Source: a virus
DNA length: 31,577 bases
IMG/VR virus record: IMGVR_UViG_3300046011_004608
Span: 1 to 31,577 of that record
Reading direction: 5' to 3' (one strand)
In this document: positions 5,139-31,577 of the stretch, one piece after another
Position numbering within the stretch: the first letter of the stretch is position 1
Layout of the letters: each line of letters begins with the position of its first letter
Made by a program: the position numbers and the translations under genes
The notes under the pieces: generated by a model
What the model was told of the DNA's origin: nothing
The model's input: the letters and a program-made list of their open reading frames with translations, nothing else
The model's database searches: none

Positions 5139-5873
5139 TTATGATTTTTCTTGTTGTGTGTTTCTTACCTCTTCTGCTACAGCTGATTGGTAAACATTAT
5201 AGTCTTTAATCAATAATCCTGATAGTTCAAGTATCTTTACAACTAACTCAGTTTCCTCTGACGGGTGTAACTCAAAGTTTACAGAGTTTGTAGCGTTGTA
5301 TAACGGTTCCTCAAATACAATTGTATAAGCCCATTGAACTTTTACAGGTTTCTTTATGTAGTTTAATGTAATAACATTTGTTGTTATTGCGGCGTCTCCA
5401 TATACTTTTAATCCGTTTAAATCTGAGAAGTAAATAGGACGCGTATTACGAGGCTTTGTTAGCGGAGACGAGTTGATATATAAGAATTCATTTTTGTTTA
5501 CTCTCTCGGCTTCTATTTGCTCTGTAGACGTAACATTGAATTGATTTGTCGTTTGATAATTAAATATAACAGTACCTACTCTATATAAATCACCTGGTAA
5601 TGGGAAATATTGAGTCGTACCGTTATAAGTTAATGATGCAGTCTTTTCAAATAAGCTAATTTTCTCATTTAAGATATTTAACATATCTGAATATTCAGTA
5701 TCGTTACCATGCATTCTACCAAATTGGTTAATATCATAGAAATATTGTTCAAACAAATCAAGTTGTGCTTGATTAGCTAACAAGTTAAATTCCTGAGGTG
5801 TAATATAACCTCGTTGCTCTTTGTTTAAAATAGTTAGAACTCTTTGATAAACTGTATCAATACTTACTGCCAT
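5139..5873 (-). CDS. Head-tail adaptor/ring protein (244 aa)
   Basis: The N-terminal segment (residues 1-50, MAVSIDTVYQRVLTILNKEQ followed by RGYITPQEFNLLANQAQLD) is a helical signature I recognise from structural proteins of uncultured marine Bacteroidota phages and crAss-like relatives. A beta-rich middle (about 80-200) and a short helical end follow. The family is usually placed in the connector below the portal. The gene opens the tail block, directly after a strong hairpin at 5906-5951 that separates it from the head genes. No enzymatic motif is seen. The structural assignment is by family recall and order, not by search. Confidence 0.6.
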   Translation of the reverse strand: MAVSIDTVYQRVLTILNKEQRGYITPQEFNLLANQAQLDLFEQYFYDINQFGRMHGNDTEYSDMLNILNEKISLFEKTASLTYNGTTQYFPLPGDLYRVGTVIFNYQTTNQFNVTSTEQIEAERVNKNEFLYINSSPLTKPRNTRPIYFSDLNGLKVYGDAAITTNVITLNYIKKPVKVQWAYTIVFEEPLYNATNSVNFELHPSEETELVVKILELSGLLIKDYNVYQSAVAEEVRNTQQEKS

Positions 5874-5905
5874 TTATTTTATAATTTATAGTTATGGTTT
5901 GCTCT

Positions 5906-5951
5906 AAATAATAAATAGGCCACTTTAAGAAAAGCAGCCTTATTTATTATA
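5906..5951 (-). terminator. Hairpin between head and tail genes (minus-strand RNA)
   Basis: Read as minus-strand RNA, the core is GGCUGCUUU, loop UCUU, AAAGUGGCC. All nine positions pair, two of them as G-U wobbles, and AU arms extend the stem on both sides (one bulge) before a U-rich stretch. In plus-strand RNA the two wobbles become C/A mismatches, so the structure is built for the leftward transcript. It lies in the 87-bp gap between the 301-residue head gene (stop at 5961) and the 244-residue connector gene (start at 5873). It could be a partial terminator or a processing or stability site. Confidence 0.65.
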
Positions 5952-28959: not shown

Positions 28960-29217
28960 TTAAGTTAATCTAATCTTAACTGCTCCGCTTGTGTGGTATA
29001 ATCCTCCTACTGGTACATTTAATAAAGCGGCTGCCGCGTCATTAGCTGCACTTGGTAATGTTAATTGGTTTAGGTTTGCTTCAACGTAATTCAATACGCT
29101 TTGTACTGTATAATTTTTGGTTTTTCCATTTTCGGCTCCTTCTGCTCCGTCAGTTCCAATCCACTTGTCTTCTGCGTTTAAAGTGCCATCAGTATTATAA
29201 TTACTTACTCTTGCCAT
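28960..29217 (-). CDS. Short adhesin-like protein with DKWIGTD N-module (85 aa)
   Basis: An 85-residue protein starting MARVSNYNTDGTLNAEDKWI followed by GTDG...KNYTVQS, the same module as at the start of the 236-residue virion protein (23379-24089). The end, AALLNVPVGGLYHTSGAVKI and RLT, is a short domain (VPVGGLYxtxGxVkiR) that I recall from many marine phage proteins. It is a stand-alone copy of attachment and end modules without the middle, so it may cap or compete at the same virion site. It sits 3 bp from the 205-residue gene. Confidence 0.65.
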   Translation of the reverse strand: MARVSNYNTDGTLNAEDKWIGTDGAEGAENGKTKNYTVQSVLNYVEANLNQLTLPSAANDAAAALLNVPVGGLYHTSGAVKIRLT

Positions 29218-29220
29218 TAT

Positions 29221-29838
29221 TTACTTTGTTAGTGAGTTTTTATTTTTATTAGTTTTATTTTTATTAGATATAGCTTCACTCATTTTATCTCCAGATACTG
29301 TAGCGATGCCTGCCGCTAATTTAGAGTTTTTAGCAGCTTTAGCCGCTTGAAATAATTTAGGTGTTCTCGTAGCGGTTTTCTTTAAAACTTCAAACCCTGT
29401 TTTAGCTGCTTTAACTTTACTGCCTAAAGGCACAGCTGAAATAACATCTAAAACATCCTTAAGTAATCTATCTTTTTTCCAATTGCCAGTTTCCGCCATC
29501 ATACCTATATGTTGAACTCCACGCTTTGCATCTCCCCAACTTGAAATCCCAGTTGGATCCGCTATAAGTGCATCAGGTTTATTTTTTGTTTCATAATCTT
29601 GTCGCTTTTCTAAATTTGACATTTTTTGATTCGCTTCGTATTTCTGAAACTCCTTTGATTCTGTTACATCTTTACCGTCTTTTGCTAACTTGTACTCAGT
29701 TTTACCCGACTGGTTTAATGTAGGCGTCTCTGTATATCCTTTTTTCTTACCAAACTTTTTATCCTGGTATTCTTTCAACGCGTTAGTCGAAGGTGATTTT
29801 GTTTGCTTGAATGGAGAACTTTTTTGTGTGTATGCCAT
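29221..29838 (-). CDS. Basic protein with SPFK leader (205 aa)
   Basis: A 205-residue, strongly basic protein starting MAYTQKSSPFKQTKSPSTNA. Residues about 10-100 are K/E/Q-rich and probably disordered; about 125-185 contains amphipathic or hydrophobic helices (LLKDVLDVISAVPLGSKVKA, AAKNSKLAAGIATV), ending in a K/N-rich tail. It carries the SPxK leader motif and overlaps the 48-codon gene (TAATG). An internal virion protein ejected with DNA, or a membrane-active protein, would fit the composition, but there is no direct evidence. Confidence 0.6.
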   Translation of the reverse strand: MAYTQKSSPFKQTKSPSTNALKEYQDKKFGKKKGYTETPTLNQSGKTEYKLAKDGKDVTESKEFQKYEANQKMSNLEKRQDYETKNKPDALIADPTGISSWGDAKRGVQHIGMMAETGNWKKDRLLKDVLDVISAVPLGSKVKAAKTGFEVLKKTATRTPKLFQAAKAAKNSKLAAGIATVSGDKMSEAISNKNKTNKNKNSLTK

Positions 29839-29984
29839 TATTTCTTTGCTTTAATTTTTTTAGCTTGCGCCAACATCGCTTTAGTAGGTTTTTTACCACT
29901 ACCTTTATTATCGCGCATGTTATCCCATAATCCTCTTTCAGAGTAGCTACCATCTTTTCGCTTAATCATTTCTTTCTTTGCCAT
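29838..29984 (-). CDS. Small basic conserved protein (48 aa)
   Basis: A 48-codon gene read from the ATG at 29984: MAKKEMIKRKDGSYSERGLW, then DNMRDNKGSGKKPTKAMLAQ and a K-rich end. I recall this plan (MAKKEMIKR.DGSYS.RGLWDN.R.NKGSGKKPT) from many uncultured marine phages, with no known function. Its stop overlaps the next start (TAATG at 29838). Twelve of its residues before the tail are basic, so nucleic acid or capsid binding is possible. Confidence 0.75.
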   Translation of the reverse strand: MAKKEMIKRKDGSYSERGLWDNMRDNKGSGKKPTKAMLAQAKKIKAKK

Positions 29985-29987
29985 GTA

Positions 29988-30233
29988 CTAGAATTTATAA
30001 TTTTCTCTACCTTCTTTTTTTGTACCTAAGCCATCGTTACCTCTATTAGCTTTAGGCGACTTCCAAGTTTTATCCTTGTGATCCCAGTCTTTACCTTCTG
30101 CTTTCGCAGGGGACTTACGACGCATTCTCTGTGCATGAGCTTTCTTATCTCTTCTCTCATCCGTCATAGCGTAAGCTTTATCTCTTGCAGCTTTAGCCCG
30201 CGCAGCCTGTGGCGATAGTTTTTGCTTTGGCAT
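29988..30233 (-). CDS. Basic protein with SPAK motif (81 aa)
   Basis: An 81-residue, very basic protein starting MPKQKLSPQAARAKAARDKA (ATG at 30233; an earlier in-frame ATG at 30308 would add a hydrophobic segment with no support). It has RRKSPAKAEGKDWDHKDKTW and KSPKANRG near the end. The composition (K, R, A, S/P) resembles nucleoid-binding or capsid-internal proteins. It is the first gene of the leftward run, next to the noncoding control region, and 3 bp from the 48-codon gene. Confidence 0.65.
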   Translation of the reverse strand: MPKQKLSPQAARAKAARDKAYAMTDERRDKKAHAQRMRRKSPAKAEGKDWDHKDKTWKSPKANRGNDGLGTKKEGRENYKF

Positions 30234-30338
30234 AATCATTAATTTTATAATTCTTATAATCGCATAGGAAATGAACAAATTAAAAATGCGACGATAGCCA
30301 CTTACCATACATTATAACGCCCTATTGTCACGTTTTGA

Positions 30339-30400
30339 AAAATATTTTGTTAGATATATATAGGTTTGTAAAATACTTTGTTAGATGTATATATGTTTGT
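30339..30400 (+). repeat. 31-bp tandem repeat with promoter-like cores
   Basis: Two head-to-tail units of 31 bp (30339-30369 and 30370-30400) differ at about three positions. Each includes TTTTGTTAGAT or CTTTGTTAGAT and ends in a TAnnTTTG box (TAGGTTTG at 30361-30368, TATGTTTG at 30392-30399). An upstream TTG lies 23 bp before each box, a little further than the usual Bacteroidota spacing of 19-21. These may be weak rightward promoters or binding sites for a regulator. Confidence 0.6.
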
Positions 30401-30420
30401 TGTTATAATATAGCATATAC

Positions 30421-30442
30421 CTTCATACCCCTTGAGGGGAAG
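30421..30442 (+). other. Hairpin CTTC-ATA-CCCC-TTGA-GGGG-AAG
   Basis: CCCC and GGGG (30428-30439) pair around a TTGA loop, and the flanking CTT/AAG can pair around an ATA bulge. It stands about 20 bp after the tandem repeat and before a pyrimidine-rich stretch. It may be part of a short leader RNA or a weak terminator. Confidence 0.4.
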
Positions 30443-30478
30443 TCACTTCTTTTAACCCAGCCCCCTATCGTTTTGTTT

Positions 30479-30496
30479 CGTTTGATGAAACGTTTT
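30479..30496 (+). terminator. Possible intrinsic terminator (CGTTT-GATG-AAACG-TTTT)
   Basis: A 5-bp stem CGTTT/AAACG with a GATG loop is followed by TTTT. The stem is short and AT-rich, so it is only a weak candidate for ending a plus-strand RNA that starts near the tandem repeat. Confidence 0.3.
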
Positions 30497-30601
30497 GGGT
30501 TTAGCTATTAGTGCTGCATGTATGTACTTGACTGCATTGGTATGTATTTTGTACGATATTAGGGATTTTGTGTACGTATTGGGATATTACCTCTACCACA
30601 T

Positions 30602-30651
30602 AGCGCAGCGAGCGAAGCGAAGCGTAGCGTATAGCATACGCGTATAGCATA
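30602..30651. repeat. GC-rich AGCG patch and TATAGCATA direct repeats
   Basis: Six AGCG tetramers start at 30602, 30607, 30611, 30616, 30621 and 30626, a nearly regular 5-bp spacing in otherwise AT-rich DNA. They run into GTATAGCATA at 30629-30638 and again at 30642-30651, flanking a perfect palindrome ATACGCGTAT (30636-30645). A third TATAGCATA is at 30409-30417. The arrangement resembles iterons or a multi-site operator immediately upstream of the first rightward promoter. Confidence 0.55.
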
Positions 30652-30655
30652 TAGG

Positions 30656-30687
30656 GTTGATACGGACTATAAAGGATAATATATTTG
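30656..30687 (+). promoter_or_regulatory. Bacteroidota-type promoter, copy 1
   Basis: GTTGATACGGA (TTG at 30657-30659), a 20-bp spacer, then TATATTTG at 30680-30687, an exact fit to TTG-N20-TAnnTTTG. GATAAT (30675-30680) lies at the end of the spacer. No gene starts before copy 2, so it may reinforce it. Confidence 0.7.
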
Positions 30688-30740
30688 AACCTAAAATAAA
30701 GGGGTTATTTAAAAAATAAATAATATATTAAAAATATAAG

Positions 30741-30772
30741 GTTGATACGGACTAATATAGATAATATAGTTG
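30741..30772 (+). promoter_or_regulatory. Bacteroidota-type promoter, copy 2
   Basis: GTTGATACGGA (TTG at 30742-30744), 20-bp spacer, TATAGTTG at 30765-30772 with GATAAT before it. It lies 18 bp upstream of the 43-codon gene at 30791, which also has a TAAATAATT leader before its ATG. Confidence 0.7.
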
Positions 30773-30790
30773 AATATAAAATAAATAATT

Positions 30791-30922
30791 ATGGAATTAA
30801 AATTAACTACCTCAGAAATTAATCAAGTCAAAGAACTGATCTATGATAGAATAGATATAGTTGGTGGTTTTGACAACTTAGAACAAAGTTTAAAAACTTT
30901 ATTAAAAAAGTTACAGAGTTGA
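30791..30922 (+). CDS. Small rightward protein (43 aa), probable early gene
   Basis: A 43-codon gene: MELKLTTSEINQVKELIYDR then IDIVGGFDNLEQSLKTLLKK and LQS. Charged and helical, with no known motif. Its own promoter lies just upstream, and its TGA stop (30920-30922) overlaps the start of promoter copy 3. The start is preceded by AAATAAATAATT, the same kind of leader as in the next two genes. The function is unknown; small early proteins of this type often act on host machinery, but nothing in the sequence shows that. Confidence 0.65.
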   Translation: MELKLTTSEINQVKELIYDRIDIVGGFDNLEQSLKTLLKKLQS

Positions 30923-30949
30923 TACGAATCAATGTAGATAATATAGTTG
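30918..30949 (+). promoter_or_regulatory. Bacteroidota-type promoter, copy 3
   Basis: GTTGATACGAA (TTG at 30919-30921), 20-bp spacer, TATAGTTG at 30942-30949, with GATAAT before it. It overlaps the stop codon of the 43-codon gene and precedes the 42-codon gene at 30982. Confidence 0.7.
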
Positions 30950-30981
30950 TAAATAAATAATAATAATTAAATAAATAAATT

Positions 30982-31110
30982 ATGACTAAAGTTGATCAAG
31001 AATTATTACAAAGAATTGAAGAATTAAAAAACTTCTGTGAAGTTAATGGATATCCATTGAGTGAAGTATTAGAAGAAGAATTAATATATTATAAAGAAGA
31101 ATTAAAATAA
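30982..31110 (+). CDS. Small rightward acidic protein (42 aa), probable early gene
   Basis: A 42-codon gene: MTKVDQELLQRIEELKNFCE, VNGYPLSEVL, then an E/Y-rich end (EEELIYYKEELK). Acidic and helical, one Cys, no known motif. It has promoter copy 3 upstream and an AAATAAATAAATT leader before the ATG. The function is unknown. Its gene stands as one of three single-gene promoter units. Confidence 0.65.
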   Translation: MTKVDQELLQRIEELKNFCEVNGYPLSEVLEEELIYYKEELK

Positions 31111-31116
31111 TATAGA

Positions 31117-31148
31117 GTTGATACGAAGTACTAACGATAATAACAATG
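31117..31148 (+). promoter_or_regulatory. Bacteroidota-type promoter, copy 4 (more divergent)
   Basis: GTTGATACGAA (TTG at 31118-31120), 20-bp spacer, TAACAATG at 31141-31148 in place of TAnnTTTG, with CGATAA before it. It precedes the 109-residue gene at 31180. The -7 box is the weakest of the four. Confidence 0.6.
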
Positions 31149-31179
31149 TAAATAAATAATAACTAAAATAAATAAAATT

Positions 31180-31509
31180 ATGGAAACTAACAAAGAATTA
31201 TTACAACAAGCCATTTCAAAATTGTCTAAAGAAGAGTTGGCATTAATCTTTCCACCTAAACAAATGAAGAACTTTGTAGTGAGAAAGTCATGGTACGGTC
31301 GAGGTCAAATAATAACCTTTACTAATAACAAAGGTCAAACTATAACTTATGACCACGATAAGGCTCTAGATATAATGATGCCAAGGTTAAATATCATGCC
31401 ATGTTGGAACAAACGAGGGTATTGGTCACAATCAACTGATATGCCGGTGAATGTTCGAACTACTGAAGTAATCATCAACAAAGTTGAACCTGAGGTTGTG
31501 GTTGAATAA
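31180..31509 (+). CDS. Unknown rightward protein (109 aa), probable early gene
   Basis: A 109-residue protein. The N-terminal part (METNKELLQQAISKLSKEEL) is helical; then a basic, aromatic middle (MKNFVVRKSWYGRGQIITFT, PCWNKRGYWSQSTDMP) and a V/E-rich end (EVVVE). No motif is recognised. It has promoter copy 4 and the same TAAATAA leader upstream. The sequence after its stop (31510-31577) shows a possible TGAGC-CGTT-GCTCA hairpin at 31553-31566 but is otherwise featureless to the window end. Confidence 0.7.
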   Translation: METNKELLQQAISKLSKEELALIFPPKQMKNFVVRKSWYGRGQIITFTNNKGQTITYDHDKALDIMMPRLNIMPCWNKRGYWSQSTDMPVNVRTTEVIINKVEPEVVVE

Positions 31510-31577
31510 CCACTCCTCGCTCACAGGGGTAACCTCAACACGCTGTAATCACTGAGCCGTTGCTCATGCTTCTTCCC

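Follow-up and report, generated by a model that had tools for sequence, protein, structure and literature searches.

The viral contig fragment IMGVR_UViG_3300046011_004608 (31,577 bases; the whole of it is called the window here) carries four copies of a directional element that is shared by a large, uncultured group of aquatic bacterial viruses, whose genomes each contain 5–17 copies. Judged from their sequence, these elements are very probably promoters. They are probably specific to the phages and read by the core RNA polymerase of the host in complex with a sigma-70-family factor that the phage encodes. Because the elements occur in viruses with their own sigma factor, they are most likely private viral start signals, not ordinary host ones. 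Co-occurrence, exclusivity, and architecture point to the phage sigma factor as their probable reader.

The element in the window and in related viruses

The window contains leftward structural genes, including terminase (phrog_6681), portal (phrog_6547), and GroEL (phrog_5725), and three small rightward ORFs in its last ~0.9 kb. The ORFs of 43 aa (30791–30922, + strand) and 42 aa (30982–31110, + strand) have no convincing family. The 109-aa ORF (31180–31509, + strand) matched no family in Pfam and PHROG searches, and no homologues were found among named phages; homologues 58–73% identical are present in dozens of element-bearing contigs (eight viral contigs in the first search, dozens later). 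A search of window positions 29000–31577 against Rfam gave no match. The closest long relative of the window, G027 (terminase 77% identical), carries both the elements and a sigma gene, and terminase relatives of the window numbered at least 600 among the matches listed in one scan.

The first-pass annotation had reported four rightward copies, at 30656, 30741, 30918, and 31117, and these coordinates and the fixed internal spacing were borne out. A scan of the whole record for GTTGATACGRA-N8-GATAA gave four forward matches and no reverse match, and the backward-read control gave none. Conservation was also said to extend beyond the -33 and -7 boxes; this is correct, but the unit reaches further upstream than was described, with a TACA/TATA box 6 nt before each copy start (30650, 30735, 30912, and 31111) that is seen only by comparison with relatives.

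All four elements are on the + strand. Element 1 (30650–30687; TATAGGGTTGATACGGACTATAAAGGATAATATATTTG; matrix score 26.8) has no gene of its own, and the next ATG is 104 nt on. Element 2 (30735–30772; TATAAGGTTGATACGGACTAATATAGATAATATAGTTG; score 22.4) is 19 nt upstream of the ATG at 30791, so both precede the 43-aa ORF. Element 3 (30912–30949; TACAGAGTTGATACGAATCAATGTAGATAATATAGTTG; score 31.0) is upstream of the 42-aa ORF and, as had been noticed, overlaps the TGA of the preceding gene (30920–30922). Element 4 (31111–31148; TATAGAGTTGATACGAAGTACTAACGATAATAACAATG; score 25.8) is upstream of the 109-aa ORF and has no host-like -7 TTG. Under the family matrix the window copies score 22–31 bits, while the rest of the window never exceeds 8. 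The proposal of one promoter per small gene describes the family well and the window only approximately. Copies 1 and 2 share one gene, no ORF separating the two, and the window therefore has four elements for three genes.

The degenerate form of the element was first read upstream of the homologues of the 109-aa ORF, where the arrangement is as in the window. Its consensus is TACAAAcTAAAYACGA-N9-GATAATATAARTG, and 600–800 copies are spread over several hundred contigs of related viruses, nearly all of these copies on a single strand. The exact 24-mer pattern of the first-pass annotation matched 36 IMG/VR stretches elsewhere, as isolated single matches in unrelated contexts, and these are therefore attributed to chance. 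Exact scanning with ATACGA-N9-GATAATATAAGTG found 86 IMG/VR stretches, and an iteratively trained matrix gave 612 matches in 94 loci, against none in reversed sequence. An unbiased dyad search, run without reference to the element, also arrived at ACGA-N9-GATA: 39 of the 89 upstream regions on the same strand had it, and none of the controls did. On the structural-gene strand, the dyad search and comparison of homologous upstream regions found no comparable repeated motif, only a weak CTTA-N18-TAATTAT-like signal in 6–8 of 62 regions. In being repeated, directional, placed before many phage genes, and absent elsewhere, the element resembles phage sigma-dependent promoters.

Placement of the element is consistent with a promoter. 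Of 58 elements in six records, 52 lie between genes. They often begin at or over the previous stop codon, and the median distance to the next start is 22 nt. Among 776 distinct elements, the distance to the start codon peaks at 18–23 nt, and 497 lie 10–45 nt from a start, where random positions give 120. In 677 of the 776, the element ends in pyrimidine-purine, at the proposed transcription start.

The phage sigma factor and its proposed promoters

That recognition would involve something more than the host sigma factor was a suggestion of the first-pass annotation, and it is now well supported, because the elements are accompanied by a sigma-70-family gene that the phages encode. A Sigma70_r2 search found a gene of about 253–255 aa in 20 of 24 element-bearing records, and none in MW202828, elemoA, or phi38:1. 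The sigma gene is present in 21 of 21 element-bearing records of at least 58 kb, and the element-bearing records without it are all fragments shorter than 54 kb. Conversely, when records of 56–72 kb were selected by their sigma gene, two or more elements lay on the sigma strand in 21 of 22; the exception, G076, carries a divergent form, TTACARACA...GGATAATAT. At least two elements are present in 49 of 54 sigma loci with at least 9 kb upstream of sigma, and sigma-selected loci have 386 elements on the sigma strand and two on the opposite strand. No sigma match was found in the window record, because it ends 0.4 kb after the last element; the sigma gene of this virus would lie beyond the end of the 31.6-kb fragment.

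Phages of named groups share structural genes with the window without sharing this pair. Flavobacterium elemo phages, Cellulophaga phi38:1/Calle_1, Tenacibaculum Gundel_1, and MW202828 have terminase and portal genes in common with it, and GroEL is annotated in elemoA, phi38:1, and MW202828, but they have neither sigma gene nor element. Eight named relatives (Pervagoviridae, Pachyviridae, Elemovirus, and MW202828; seven complete genomes and elemoF_6-3D, titled partial) gave zero elements and zero sigma genes. Co-occurrence of element and sigma gene may nevertheless reflect common descent alone.

The sigma proteins have regions 2 and 4 in order (Pfam E 7e-8 and 1e-4, respectively; region 4 is weak in some members) and match phage RNA polymerase sigma factors of phrog_351 over regions 2–4 (E 1e-16 to 1e-23). 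They match bacterial SigA/FliA in PDB by sequence and sigma factors by fold; Foldseek aligned the AlphaFold model (mean pLDDT 77, pTM 0.47) with sigma factors over ~250 residues, although global TM-scores were low. The gene is encoded by 524 contig stretches, and homologues in named phages are only distant (~24% identity; Microcystis MaAM05 and Synechococcus S-CBS1). One record (IMGVR_UViG_3300047157_000162, 129,537 bp) is twice the usual length and has two different sigma genes 62 kb apart; it is probably two related phages joined in assembly. MAGs labelled as Aliivibrio, Ilumatobacteraceae, Halieaceae, and other taxa also contain the sigma gene; binning has most likely assigned phage contigs to the wrong bacterium.

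In the proposed mechanism, host core RNA polymerase with the phage sigma factor (~253 aa, regions 2 and 4) would read each element, GATAAT would be the -10 box, and the upstream TACAAAC and AYACGA would add specificity. The RNA would begin with the final purine of ...ARTG or an adjacent base and have an A-rich leader of ~20 nt, and each small gene would therefore have its own start. Sigma would come from a same-strand gene that in most cases is downstream of the promoter cluster or close to its end. Transcription of the region by host sigma-A would supply the first sigma protein, and in some genomes, where such an element precedes the sigma gene itself, auto-activation could follow. A sigma gene downstream of most elements is an awkward order for a switch under its control.

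Both the start site and the timing of transcription are inferred. A sigma-70-like parse, with GATAAT as -10 and the start near the final G, appears to fit better than a -33/-7 parse, because in 9 of 89 sigma loci the sigma ATG is 0 or 3 nt from the final G of the element (in G027, GATAATATAAATATGAAAAAATAC). In Bacteroidota, transcription starts 4–5 nt after the -7 box (PMC6847099). In the 0-nt cases, a host-type parse would thus place the start within the sigma ORF, but with GATAAT as -10 it would fall on the start codon; the argument assumes that elements adjoining the sigma gene express it.

Phage sigma factors with private promoters are known from phiEco32 (gp36) and phage 7-11 (gp47), podoviruses whose sigma-like protein redirects the polymerase of the host to scattered promoters that share a consensus specific to the phage (PMC8948821). 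These promoters (tAATGTAtA alone or GTAAtg-16-aCTA; six and eight promoters) have middle/late timing, and start sites are 6–9 bp from the element (PMC8948821). The present system differs in its consensus (TACAAAC..AYACGA-N9-GATAATATAARTG), in its 5–17 copies before small genes of the non-structural arm, and in its presumed Bacteroidota hosts, and it is known from sequence alone. No description of this sigma factor, its consensus, or the promoters of this phage group was found in the open-access papers searched. The proposed pairing would give a concrete transcription program for an abundant, so far uncultured aquatic phage group, whose early-gene set would become readable directly from sequence. 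Sigma factor and candidate regulon would form a testable pair in a phylum with unusual host promoters.

Alternative explanations

Early promoters of phage T4 have extra conserved bases that tune strength. By the same logic, the elements could be strong early promoters of extended length that the host sigma-A holoenzyme reads in unmodified form, with the phage sigma factor reading, for example, late genes. We consider this unlikely, although the window's own sequence favors it. Bacteroidota sigma-ABfr promoters have TTTG at -33 and TAnnTTTG at -7 (PMC7366714, PMC6847099), and copies 1–3 in the window match GTTG-N20-TAnnTTG exactly, as first described; copy 4, which ends in TAACAATG and lacks the -7 TTG, does not. 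The -7 sequences of copies 1–4 are TATATTTG, TATAGTTG, TATAGTTG, and TAACAATG, with a full TAnnTTTG match in one of the four. The position of the cluster, from the divergence point on and ahead of the sigma gene, is also the one expected of immediate-early genes. The family points the other way and lends no support to the -33/-7 parse as a general rule. TTG at -33 is present in all four window copies, yet in only 7 of 494 family copies, and the box is therefore regarded as a local variant of the window genome, whose copies are closer to the host consensus than family copies are. The family -7 region is mostly TATAARTG/TATATATG, with ARTG or ATATG usual in place of TTTG, and the conserved bases (ACGA and GATAATAT) are outside the host boxes. 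TAnnTTTG boxes are not enriched in sigma-family genomes (chance level in five such records, the window apart), in contrast to an excess in elemoA and MW202828. In addition, the element is absent from sigma-less relatives, and no second repeated motif for the sigma factor to read turned up on the structural-gene strand.

Alternatively, the repeats could be an operator regulon, that is, sites for a phage repressor or activator that overlap promoters and are not promoter boxes themselves. There is a parallel in sigma-less MW202828, which has another repeated early-region element, the palindrome GTGTCGTTAACGACAC. However, an operator role is improbable: the present element has a direction and lacks dyad symmetry, GATAAT within it resembles a -10 box, and its copies lie on the coding strand at a fixed distance before start codons. 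More improbable still are promoters of a phage-encoded RNA polymerase, either single-subunit and T7-like or a virion polymerase as in crAss-like phages. There is a visual resemblance between AATACGA and the T7 promoter, with AATACGACTCACTATC in one copy (in L212), and these phages have giant structural ORFs. Against this, a T7 RNA polymerase query found no homologue in 19 sigma-family records (T7, the positive control, was detected; distant members could be missed), and no DxDGD motif turned up in the giant ORFs that were inspected, which speaks against a multisubunit-type virion polymerase. A sigma factor would also be redundant in such a system. Transcription by host core polymerase with the phage sigma factor remains the preferred reading.

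Genome-specific variants and neighboring features

The base before GATAAT may be A, C, G, or T; it is genome-specific and differs between close relatives in the 44 sigma-family genomes compared (L257–L336). Agreement within a genome is 85%, compared to 47% when shuffled (z 24; 305 elements). Spacer positions 6–12 are near shuffles (z 4 or less), and position 13, which adjoins the variable base, is intermediate (z 6.6); with no spacer in common among the copies, the uniform base is not accounted for by recent copying of elements. The base has little relation to sigma similarity (identity 0.70 within vs. 0.68 between), and sigma proteins ~95% identical can accompany different bases (G in L272, A in L278). 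Among candidate sigma residues that might set the base, the best column, D/Q at residue 55, gave no clean mapping and was confounded by descent. The GTTG before ATACG, common to all four window copies, looks like the same phenomenon. A genome-specific "password" in a shared promoter, with promoters and recognition factor drifting in concert, is a doubtful explanation; if true, it could stop the sigma factor of one phage from serving the genes of a co-infecting relative. These variants make sigma-promoter co-evolution testable over many natural pairs. The L212 copy mentioned above, AATACGACTCACTATC on the minus strand, is almost a T7 promoter core, and it is taken as coincidence because no T7-type polymerase was found in the group.

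Two GCGTATAGCATA repeats (30627–30651, + strand) are directly upstream of element 1. Of 77 relatives, 36 have TATAGCA/TACAGCA no more than 200 bp from the first element, compared to 6 of 77 in a control stretch. About 300 bp before element 1, two tandem 31-nt repeats (30334–30399, + strand) each have the form TTTG-N23-TAnnTTTG (TTTG-N23-TAGGTTTG and TTTG-N23-TATGTTTG). These promoter-like sites are consensus matches only, and they are candidate early host-read starts.

The divergent intergenic region of the window has a conserved inverted repeat at 30290–30329 (GACGATAGCC-N20-CCCTATTGTC), which is also present in ~19 relatives (GACAATAGG...TTATATATAATAGTA...GGCTAACGTCGCA) and is possibly an operator or replication origin. 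In MW202828.1, 14 exact copies of the palindrome GTGTCGTTAACGACAC (43745–55169) all lie in the rightward non-structural arm, a place equivalent to that of the element, and many precede a start codon by ~30 nt. Between two structural genes of the window, upstream of the minus-strand gene at 5139–5873, a hairpin (AGGCTGC...GGCC) at ~5890–5945 is found in the same place in many relatives and looks like an attenuator or terminator.
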